Shown: in pieces, positions 10,754-36,033 of the stretch
Layout of the letters: every line of letters begins with the position of its first letter
How positions within the stretch are numbered: position 1 is the first letter of the stretch
Origin: Ignavibacteria bacterium
GTDB lineage: Bacteria; Bacteroidota; Ignavibacteria; Tepidaquicellales; Tepidaquicellaceae
Assembly: GCA_016783945.1 (NCBI GenBank)
Contig: JADHVP010000019.1
Coordinates: 1 to 40,190, forward strand
Reading direction: 5' to 3'
Length of the DNA: 40,190 nucleotides
Translations under genes and position numbers: made by a program
Notes under the pieces: generated by a model
Database searches by the model: none
Told to the model about the DNA's origin: nothing
The model's input: only the letters and a program-made list of their open reading frames with translations

Positions 10754-12874
10754 ATGAAAAAAATTATAATACTTATAGTTTTCTTTTTCTTAACAAATAG
10801 TACTGAAATTTCTTTTTGCCAAACAAAGATTAAATATCCCGAAACTAAAAAGGTTCCTCACATAGATAATTATTTTGGAATCGATGTACCCGACCCTTAC
10901 AGGTGGTTAGAGGATATGGAATCACCGGAAGTGAAGGAGTGGGTTGATGTTCAGAATGAAGTTACTTTTGATTATTTGGAAAGCATTCCATACAGAGAAA
11001 AAATAAAAGAGAGATTGACTGAGCTATGGGATTACCCAAGGTATTCCGCACCTTTTAAATCCGGAGAAAATTTCTTTTTTTATAAGAATGATGGCTTGCA
11101 AAATCAAAGTGTTGTTTACATCCAAAAAGATCTGAATTCCGAACCTGAAGTATTTATAGACCCGAATAAATTCTCGGAAGACGGAACGGTTGCTCTTTCA
11201 ACTCTATCTGCTTCGAAAGATGGCAAGTATGTTGTTTATGGAATGTCGAATGCCGGTTCCGATTGGGTAGAATTTTTTGTTATAGATATTGAAAGTAAAA
11301 AACAGTTGAAGGATCATATCAAGTGGGTAAAATTTTCGGGAGCTTCGTGGTATAGGGATGGATTTTATTATAAAAGGTTCGATAAACCGGAAGAAGGAAA
11401 AGAGTTAATCTCAAAGAATGATAATCAAAAGGTATATTTCCATAGAGTTGGAACAGATCAGAGTGAGGACGTTTTGGTTTATGAAGACCCGGAGCACCCG
11501 AATAGATTTTTTTATATTTCCCCATCTGAAGATGAAAGATATTTATATTTAAGCATTTCTGAAAAAGGTGAGAATGGAAATTCTATTTATTTTCGAGATA
11601 ACCGGAAAGCGGATCTCGATTGGCACCCCATTGTCGAGGGTTTTGAATATGACTACTGGGTTGTAAACAATATTGATGATGAAATATTTATTATAACGAA
11701 TAAGAATGCCCCAAAAAGAAAATTAGTAAAGCTTAATCCAAATCAGTCTCAGATAATATTTGAAGATGTCATTCCTGAAAAAGTAGACGTACTCTCAGAT
11801 GTAACTTTAGCGAGGAATAAATTCATAGCTACCTATTTAAAAGATGCAAGCGATCACATATTTGTGTATGATGTACATGGGAATCTTCTCGAAGAGATCA
11901 AACTTCCGACACTTGGTTCAGTCTATGGTTTCCGGGGAAAAAAAGAAGACAATGAGTTGTTTTATACATTTACATCTTACACACACCCATCTACAATTTA
12001 TAAATATAATGTTGACGAAGGTAAATCGGAACTCTATCGAAAAACAGAGGCGAAATATAATCCTGATGATTATGAAACCAAACAAGTCTTTTTTGAAAGT
12101 AAAGACGGTACAAAGGTTCCGATGTTCATTGTTAACAAAAAAGGTATCAAGTTAGATGGAAACAATCCAACATTGCTATACGGTTACGGAGGTTTCAATA
12201 TAAGTTTTACTCCTCATTTTGAGTCTTCTCTTTTGGTATTTCTTGAAAACGGGGGTGTATATGCTTTAGCGAATCTTCGCGGGGGTGGTGAGTATGGTGA
12301 AGAATGGCACAAAGCGGGGATGGTTCTTAATAAGCAAAATGTATTTGATGATTTCATTTCTGCTGCTGAATATCTTATCGAGAATAAATATACTTCTCCT
12401 GAAAAACTTGCAATAGAAGGTGGCTCAAACGGAGGCTTACTCGTTGGTGCTGTTATGACTCAAAGACCTGAACTGTTTAAAGTTGCTTTACCCGGAAAAG
12501 GTGTGCTGGATATGTTAAGATTTCATGAATATACAATCGGCTGGGCATGGATTACTGAATACGGTACGAGCGAGGACTCTGTTCAGTTCAGGAACTTACT
12601 TTCTTATTCCCCATTGCAAAATCTTAAAGATGGTGTAAACTATCCTGCAACTTTAGTGACGACTTCAGACCATGATGATAGGGTTGTTCCTATGCATTCG
12701 TATAAATACATTGCAACTTTGCAGGAAAAACAGGCTGGCGATGCTCCCGTACTATTAAGAGTTGAAACAAATACAGGTCATGGATTCGGTAAACCATTAA
12801 GTAAGATAATAGATGTAGAAACTGATATATGGTCGTTTGTTTTTTCTAACTTAGGGATGAATCCTTCTTATTGA
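10754..12874 (+). CDS. Prolyl oligopeptidase (S9A)
   Basis: VPDPYRWLED; GGSNGGLLVG catalytic Ser; C-terminal DHDDRV...TNTGHG. Confidence 0.95.
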   Translation: MKKIIILIVFFFLTNSTEISFCQTKIKYPETKKVPHIDNYFGIDVPDPYRWLEDMESPEVKEWVDVQNEVTFDYLESIPYREKIKERLTELWDYPRYSAPFKSGENFFFYKNDGLQNQSVVYIQKDLNSEPEVFIDPNKFSEDGTVALSTLSASKDGKYVVYGMSNAGSDWVEFFVIDIESKKQLKDHIKWVKFSGASWYRDGFYYKRFDKPEEGKELISKNDNQKVYFHRVGTDQSEDVLVYEDPEHPNRFFYISPSEDERYLYLSISEKGENGNSIYFRDNRKADLDWHPIVEGFEYDYWVVNNIDDEIFIITNKNAPKRKLVKLNPNQSQIIFEDVIPEKVDVLSDVTLARNKFIATYLKDASDHIFVYDVHGNLLEEIKLPTLGSVYGFRGKKEDNELFYTFTSYTHPSTIYKYNVDEGKSELYRKTEAKYNPDDYETKQVFFESKDGTKVPMFIVNKKGIKLDGNNPTLLYGYGGFNISFTPHFESSLLVFLENGGVYALANLRGGGEYGEEWHKAGMVLNKQNVFDDFISAAEYLIENKYTSPEKLAIEGGSNGGLLVGAVMTQRPELFKVALPGKGVLDMLRFHEYTIGWAWITEYGTSEDSVQFRNLLSYSPLQNLKDGVNYPATLVTTSDHDDRVVPMHSYKYIATLQEKQAGDAPVLLRVETNTGHGFGKPLSKIIDVETDIWSFVFSNLGMNPSY

Positions 12875-34758: not shown

Positions 34759-34886
34759 ATTTTAATTATTAAAAAGTTATGTTTATATTTGTCATTGTAA
34801 AAGCAGAGTCTATTGAAGAGGACTCTGGGATTTAAAATTCTTAATTATTCAGAGTCTCCTTCCCCGAAGGGGCTCCTTCCCCATAG

Positions 34887-34905
34887 CTGTCCATTATACA
34901 CAAAT
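34887..34905 (+). repeat. Left terminal inverted repeat (19 bp)
   Basis: CTGTCCATTATACACAAAT. Confidence 0.9.
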
Positions 34906-35003
34906 CATTTTCTCAATGCAGCTTCATAACCTTTTAAAAAATCTGCTGTTCTTCTAATTCCTATCCAAATTGTTATAGGACCAGGCGGAGAATCACTTTT
35001 CCA
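34905..35003 (-). pseudogene. In-frame remnant of a Tn5-type transposase C-terminus, directly after the DUF4338 stop
   Basis: Translation continuing in the same frame after TAA: WKSDSPPGPITIWIGIRRTADFLKGYEAALRK*, stop overlapping the left TIR by 1 nt. Confidence 0.7.
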
Positions 35004-35951
35004 TTAGCTTACCCCCAATACTGTTCGAAAATTCCTCTCAAGAGGGTAAACGTAGATATCTTTCACAGGTAAACTATGTTTATTATATCTGTCTAACTTA
35101 CCACGACCTTTTGTCTTTCCTAAATATATCCAGTTTGCTGCTTTATAACTTGTTCCTGCAAAACGTCCCGTTTCTACAAATGTCTCTAATAATACAGGGC
35201 GATAACCATAGCAATTGGAAAAATCTTCTTGTACTCTCTGAGTACATATCGAAAGTACTTTTGAAGCAAGGTTCTTACTACGTACCCAGGGTAGGATTAG
35301 GAATCGAGAATTATTAACAATTAAATGTAGCAGCTTCTCTCTTGTCAATGAATCCCAACCTATCCAACTGTCTCTCGGCTTAAGTTTCCAGGCAGAGGCT
35401 GAAAAACCAACTGCCCCAAGTATACCACTATCCCATTTTATTATGTATCGTTGCTGTGCCCCGGGTAATGGAGTATAACCTAAGTAATGATATTTTCCTA
35501 TCAATGCATTCCATAATCTTGATGCCTTGCTGTCTTTCACTGACTCTAAACGCAAACCTCGAAGCTCACCTACAGGATAAACTACCTGTGATTTAGGAAC
35601 TTCGCATATTGGAATGTCTGTAAAATTAAATCGCTTACCGTTACCATTCCTATTACGTGGAGGTGGAAGCTTGATTAGACCTAAACGGTCTAACCTTAGT
35701 AGAGCCACTTTACAACTCATTATCTTTTTCCGACCAAGCCTGTCATACCAGCTTAAACGTTCACATACTTGTCGGGCAATTTCTTCTCTAAAAACCGGAT
35801 TGGCTTTCCTTATCTCTTCTTCTATTATTCCTATTTCATATGACCCAAATTCCCGCCCACATATTCTCTTCTTTTCGAATAAGAATGCCTGCCTCTGCCT
35901 GGCAGTCAAACAGGTGGCTGTCAGACTAAGATTTTTAGCAGTCTCTTGCAT
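35004..35951 (-). CDS. DUF4338 (Druantia DruA-like) protein
   Basis: RLWNALIGKYHYLGYTPLPGAQQRYIIKWDSGILGAVGFSASAWKLKPRDSWIGW...NNSRFLILPWVRSKNLASKVLS...YGYRPVLLETFVETGRFAGTSYKAANWIYLGKTKGRGKLDR. Confidence 0.85.
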   Translation of the reverse strand: MQETAKNLSLTATCLTARQRQAFLFEKKRICGREFGSYEIGIIEEEIRKANPVFREEIARQVCERLSWYDRLGRKKIMSCKVALLRLDRLGLIKLPPPRNRNGNGKRFNFTDIPICEVPKSQVVYPVGELRGLRLESVKDSKASRLWNALIGKYHYLGYTPLPGAQQRYIIKWDSGILGAVGFSASAWKLKPRDSWIGWDSLTREKLLHLIVNNSRFLILPWVRSKNLASKVLSICTQRVQEDFSNCYGYRPVLLETFVETGRFAGTSYKAANWIYLGKTKGRGKLDRYNKHSLPVKDIYVYPLERNFRTVLGVS

Positions 35952-36014
35952 TATATTTCCTTGATTATATTTAAAAAGATATTATACAAAATATTTTCCT
36001 TCGTGTCCAGTCAT

Positions 36015-36033
36015 ATTTGTGTATAATGGACAG
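36015..36033 (-). repeat. Right terminal inverted repeat (19 bp)
   Basis: ATTTGTGTATAATGGACAG, perfect reverse complement of the left end. Confidence 0.9.

Follow-up and report, generated by a model that had tools for sequence, protein, structure and literature searches.

What is a solitary gene of the DUF4338 family doing between the ends of what resembles an insertion sequence? DruA, the protein whose name this Pfam family (PF14236) carries, is a component of Druantia. In the window, by which we mean the whole stretch of 40,190 nucleotides that was analysed, positions 34887-36033 form a 1147-bp unit with perfect 19-bp inverted repeats at both ends and one gene of this family, the unit being read from the minus strand. 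An earlier note on this DNA had described the unit as a DUF4338 gene packaged as a mobile element and had left it undecided whether the protein is a transposase domain, an accessory factor or a passenger. The locus accordingly raises two questions: from what kind of element the unit derives, and what a DruA-like protein might contribute to such an element.

Ends, extent and copy number of the unit

The terminal repeats are exact, as the earlier note had it: the copy downstream of the gene (34887-34905, plus strand) reads CTGTCCATTATACACAAAT, and the copy upstream of the gene (36015-36033) is its exact reverse complement, the minus strand there reading CTGTCCATTATACACAAAT. No longer inverted repeat is present in the 2 kb surrounding the unit. 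With up to 3 mismatches allowed, the window contains three matches to the 19-bp repeat, against 0.01 expected from the shuffled window; the third (11860-11878, 3 mismatches) falls within a probable coding stretch and looks like a chance match. The repeat is identical at 15 of 19 positions to the outer end of Tn5, and likewise at 15 of 19 to the mosaic end; other sites in the 40-kb window reach at most 13 of 19 to the outer end. This match indicates the IS50/Tn5 group of the IS4 family, whose members generate 9-bp target duplications. No 9-bp duplication is found beside the window unit (tccccatag versus tcttgctaa), as had already been remarked. Two similar repeats, AGAGTCTCCTTCCCC and AGGGGCTCCTTCCCC, adjoin the left end of the unit at 34851-34882 and could be the trace of a rearranged insertion site.

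Both the unit and its inverted repeats are single-copy in the assembly (2.73 Mb in 139 contigs, about 78% complete), and neither a second copy of the unit nor an empty site was found. In 399 genomes of the phylum, a search for the repeat that allowed up to 2 mismatches returned scattered matches and no further inverted pair at insertion-sequence spacing. A single exact match in viral contigs (n=1) lies inside a phage reading frame and was rejected as chance. We infer the mobility of the window copy, which would be mobile only if a Tn5-type transposase acted in trans on its ends.

The sole real ORF in the unit, at 35004-35951 on the minus strand, is an intact druA-like (DUF4338) gene of 315 codons, an assignment borne out by a PF14236 profile search (E=4.6e-51). 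The description of the unit as this gene and little else holds as far as intact genes are concerned and fails for the space separating the druA stop from the inner repeat, which contains the remnant of a transposase.

A fuller relative on a plasmid and a transposase remnant in the window

Among homologues whose context is resolved, the nearest is encoded by plasmid NZ_CP020372.1 of Candidatus Thiodictyon syntrophicum. The window protein shares 56% identity with this DruA, and the two pair in a tree of DruA domains with a support of 0.98. The Thiodictyon element (L088:5872-10759) has 19-bp Tn5-like ends (CTGACTATTACCCACATCT and CTGACTATTAACCATATCT; the window repeat is identical to the left end at 13 of 19 positions) and is flanked by a perfect 9-bp duplication, GGCCCTGGG. 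Within it the stop codon of druA and the start of a Tn5-type transposase gene overlap; the product of the latter matches PF14706 in its N-terminal part (E=5e-20) and, in its C-terminal part, DDE_Tnp_1, the PF02281 domain Dimer_Tnp_Tn5 (E=2e-22 for PF02281) and an NCBIfam IS4 family model (E=5.8e-118). An annotated IS91-type insertion, itself flanked by a 19-bp inverted repeat, interrupts this transposase. A piece of a DUF2235 gene lies on each side of the element, and the first of the two spans no more than the N-terminal part of the Tle1-like domain, so that the gene was apparently split by the element.

The gene order and ends of the window unit correspond to those of the Thiodictyon element. 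Directly behind druA, at 34908-35003 on the minus strand, are 32 codons (WKSDSPPGPITIWIGIRRTADFLKGYEAALRK) that tblastn aligns with the Thiodictyon transposase; they occupy the same position after the druA stop as that transposase does, and their own stop codon abuts the inner inverted repeat. The window tail KSDSPPGPITIWIGIRRTADF can be aligned with KSDGFPGPQTLWIGLQRAADF, close to the C-terminal end of that transposase, at a score reached by none of 2000 shuffles. When the same transposase was compared with the whole assembly, the single match (34920-35042, E=1.9e-4) was this stretch, the corresponding search in three other genomes giving 1 to 11 matches. The assembly, about 78% complete, yielded no full-length Tn5-type transposase, and a Pfam search with the 32-residue tail, too short for Pfam, gave no match. 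An ATG at 35002-35004 (minus strand) overlaps the druA stop as TAATG, an arrangement like the ATGA overlap in the Thiodictyon element; it now opens only M-E-K-stop and probably marks the old transposase start codon. Judged from the sequence, the unit almost certainly consists of these parts: two ends, druA and a transposase remnant.

DUF4338 genes across other transposons

From GTDB genomes, 80 relatives of the window DruA were recovered by sequence similarity alone, regardless of gene context. At least 61 of them are fused to a DDE transposase gene or lie within 600 bp of one, and many are inside transposon inverted repeats, which upholds the earlier suggestion that proteins of this DUF4338 branch belong to mobile elements. 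The 61 linked relatives divide into IS66 (38, one with a remnant), PF13808/DDE type (9), ISAs1 (6), IS4 (4), IS701 (3) and Tn5-type (1), families being assigned through representatives (PF03050 for IS66, DDE_5 for IS701, the PF13808 types, and DDE_Tnp_1 for IS4); many of the other 19 are truncated by contig ends. In-frame fusions occur with three transposase families. A single 761-residue ORF (L051) contains DruA and a complete Tn5-type transposase; DruA is joined to an IS701 transposase in L061, and also in L056 and L062 as judged by ORF length and overlap; and ISAs1 fusions are seen in L066, L089 and others.

Perfect inverted repeats enclose druA together with the transposase in L004 (18 bp), L009 (21 bp), L010 (19 bp), L013 (17 bp) and L025 (16 bp). 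In the IS66 element L016, for which an exact 8-bp duplication (ACTAATTC) is present, the order is an upstream small ORF, tnpB, druA and tnpC. A first scan of 350 bp around druA in the relatives had revealed almost nothing because their inverted repeats enclose druA plus the transposase; the repeat scan therefore covered the full core. The IS66, IS4, ISAs1, IS701 and related elements (e.g. L004, L010, L016, L025, L061 and L089) resemble the window unit in having a druA-like gene inside inverted repeats or fused to a transposase, but differ from it in transposase family and ends and in that the transposase is present. Among all relatives bounded by terminal inverted repeats, exact target duplications were seen only in the Thiodictyon element (9 bp) and L016 (8 bp), many of the others being truncated by contig ends. 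One relative, L053, is a short 1504-bp unit comprising druA and just the N-terminal part of an IS66 transposase.

Within the phylum, PF14236 matches 20 places in 12 of the 399 genomes. DDE transposases are linked to at least 12 of these places. One of the 20 belongs to a genuine type I Druantia locus in which DruA occurs alongside DruD and DruE, and another is Druantia-like by its next gene. Tn5-type transposases were detected with a 55-residue N-terminal query in 166 plasmid records versus DruA homologues in only 2, which indicates that DruA is optional and not generally required by these transposases.

A few further loci extend the range of contexts. Intact druA homologues in two Nitrospirae MAGs (L020:2992-3900 and L021:2908-3888) have similar flanking DNA and no nearby transposase, and are possibly domesticated copies. 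A conserved ORF of 232 residues with no Pfam match lies just 3' of druA in an IS66-linked group (L005:2701-3396, L007 and L008; loci 78-79% identical in DNA) and is a possible third gene of that element. At L139:329-3217 a druA homologue faces a gene for a 768-residue Transposase_29 protein (PF21804), possibly a further druA-linked transposase type. A 382-residue protein (L140:4931-6076) is DruA-like over 61 residues only, and would be a remote or incomplete member of the family.

Elements of the Tn5 type are already known, as are MITE-like deletion derivatives and the GNAT nature of DUF4338. In the openly accessible papers searched, we found no account of DUF4338 recurring in DDE transposons, whether as a gene or as a fused domain; the association may have been noted elsewhere. 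Were IS66, IS4, Tn5-type, ISAs1 and IS701 elements to share a helper domain, this would be a new feature in common between separate transposase families.

Fold of the DruA-like protein and its likeness to Mom

An AlphaFold2 model of the window protein, built with 60 relatives, has a mean pLDDT of 87.5; a search by sequence yielded no solved homologue. Foldseek comparison of the model with the PDB returned GNAT acyltransferases (best E=3.3e-5), so the predicted fold is that of a GNAT acyltransferase and not of a transposase, contrary to one of the roles entertained in the earlier note. The third match was Mom of phage Mu (8bv8; E=8e-5, 16% identity). Forty-nine of the 60 relatives match the Pfam Mom family at E<=0.01; against its curated cut-off of 27.1 bits the window protein scores 15.9, and the relative L061 exceeds the cut-off. 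An hhalign comparison with the single Mu Mom sequence was weak (E=0.041) and placed the near-invariant DruA stretch FVETGRFAGTSYKAANWIYLG on Mom. DruA shares with Mu Mom and the GNAT acyltransferases the predicted fold and a stretch of the form F-x-[DE]...R...G-x-x-Y-x-A-x-N, but differs in an extra helical domain, modelled as a separate region over the N-terminal third, and in the level of identity, which is only about 16%. Consistent with the model, DUF4338 has been described as a GNAT domain, in that case fused to DndF (PMC10853773), and Mom-family enzymes are known to acylate adenine at N6 (PMC7824862).

Proposed role of DruA in transposition

In our reading DruA is a transposon accessory protein, not a transposase. 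The GNAT fold, the Mom motif and the in-frame transposase fusions suggest that it most likely acts in concert with the transposase, by acylating nucleic acid or protein in the course of transposition. An accessory role in which DNA or the transposase is acylated is plausible. Modification of nucleic acid in particular is possible, if somewhat short of probable: the bases of the element would, for example, be acylated, helping it to evade restriction or regulating the use of its ends, and such DNA modification is the reading that we tentatively favour. A broader proposal, which we put forward with still more reserve, is that the proteins of the DUF4338/DruA family act as Mom-like acyltransferases on nucleic acid, and that DDE transposons of many unrelated kinds recruited them independently, either as genes of their own or as fused domains, to mark the transposon DNA during transposition, the DruA of Druantia having been captured from this transposon pool and acting by modifying or reading DNA marks.

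The most serious alternative is that DruA is a neutral or host-beneficial passenger with no role in transposition. It would account for the lack of a linked DruA beside most plasmid Tn5-type transposases and for a druA ORF that has stayed intact although the transposase was lost. We consider it unlikely, since a passenger would hardly be expected to be fused in frame to three transposase families (Tn5-type in L051, IS701 in L061, ISAs1 in L066 and L089), to lie between tnpB and tnpC in IS66 elements (L016), or to have its stop overlap the start of the transposase gene; these three features point to a shared function of DruA and the transposase.

Relationship to Druantia

Another explanation sees in the unit a solo defence gene, an anti-phage DruA that has come to lie between inverted repeats by chance. 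The Pfam name invites it, DruA belonging to Druantia, and the window protein does share the PF14236/DUF4338 family with Druantia DruA. The explanation is nevertheless very improbable given the linkage of the relatives to transposons and the distance of the window protein from Druantia itself. Its match to the PADLOC DruA1 model is 13 bits (E=0.0078), versus 651 bits for a genuine Druantia DruA, and it is about 90 residues shorter than the 404-residue Druantia type I DruA of genome G432. Neither DruD nor DruE accompanies it, in keeping with the earlier remark that no Druantia partner is nearby: the DruE helicase, which in Druantia belongs to the operon, is absent from the assembly, and the same search detects it in the control genome G432. 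Relatives of the window protein were found neither in a scan of viral contigs nor in phage records. In the DruA-domain tree the single full Druantia DruA was too divergent to be placed.

Genes called 'Druantia protein DruA' by Pfam family alone will often be transposon genes, and solo calls of this kind should not be counted as defence. Our results show DruA-like enzymes to be common helper genes of many bacterial transposons rather than mainly defence genes. The literature searched assigns no biochemical role to Druantia DruA; if the family is mainly one of transposon accessory enzymes with a GNAT/Mom-like fold, acyl transfer to nucleic acid or protein would be its likely activity. Were this true, transposition with versus without the gene would offer a simple assay system, and one could test whether a defence component originated from mobile DNA.

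Probable origin of the unit from a Tn5-type element

In light of the fuller druA-tnp arrangement in Thiodictyon, an internal deletion is the most likely source of the window unit. More specifically, the unit is very probably a non-autonomous, MITE-like derivative of a Tn5/IS50-type element composed of druA and tnp, with DruA as an accessory protein; the idea that DUF4338 alone makes up the mobile unit gives way to descent from a two-gene element. The parent would have held two overlapping genes, druA and then tnp, between 19-bp Tn5-like ends, and an internal deletion would have removed about 430 tnp codons (about 1.3 kb), retaining druA, the last 32 tnp codons and both ends. No parent copy was found, and the deletion event is an inference. 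Like the Tn5/IS50 group, the unit has 19-bp ends of the CTG...TATACACA type and the C-terminal remnant of a Tn5-type transposase, and its fuller relative has made the 9-bp target duplication; it differs in having a druA-like gene upstream, in the deletion of its transposase and in the missing duplication. A functional transposase of this group combines PF14706, DDE and PF02281 regions, whereas the window unit has the 32-codon remnant only, which marks it as a deletion derivative rather than a full IS50/Tn5 member; having no transposase of its own, it is also not an autonomous insertion sequence. With MITEs and other deletion derivatives of insertion sequences it shares intact ends and a lost transposase, but it retains an intact accessory gene and multicopy spread was not seen.

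That the short unit arose instead by recombination or through an assembly error might be suspected from its source in a MAG assembly and from the missing target duplication; it is scarcely credible for a unit that sits 4 kb inside a 40-kb contig, has perfect ends and carries its transposase remnant in the expected position beside the inner end. The least tenable alternative, in which DUF4338 would itself serve as the transposase and the unit would be a new single-gene insertion sequence, could appeal to the presence of DruA alone between perfect ends in the window and to L053, a comparably short unit whose only intact gene is druA, but is largely refuted by the transposase remnants in both of these short units and by the linkage to DDE transposases, in that the relatives of this GNAT-fold protein adjoin or are fused to complete enzymes of at least five distinct families with their own ends.

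Descent of the unit from a druA-tnp element is also supported by further pairs of druA followed by a Tn5-type transposase, found in genomes G272, G306 and G327. In G272 (L129, L130, L132 and L133) there are 11 Tn5-type transposase matches, several with internal stop codons, and a druA homologue lies upstream of at least four of them.
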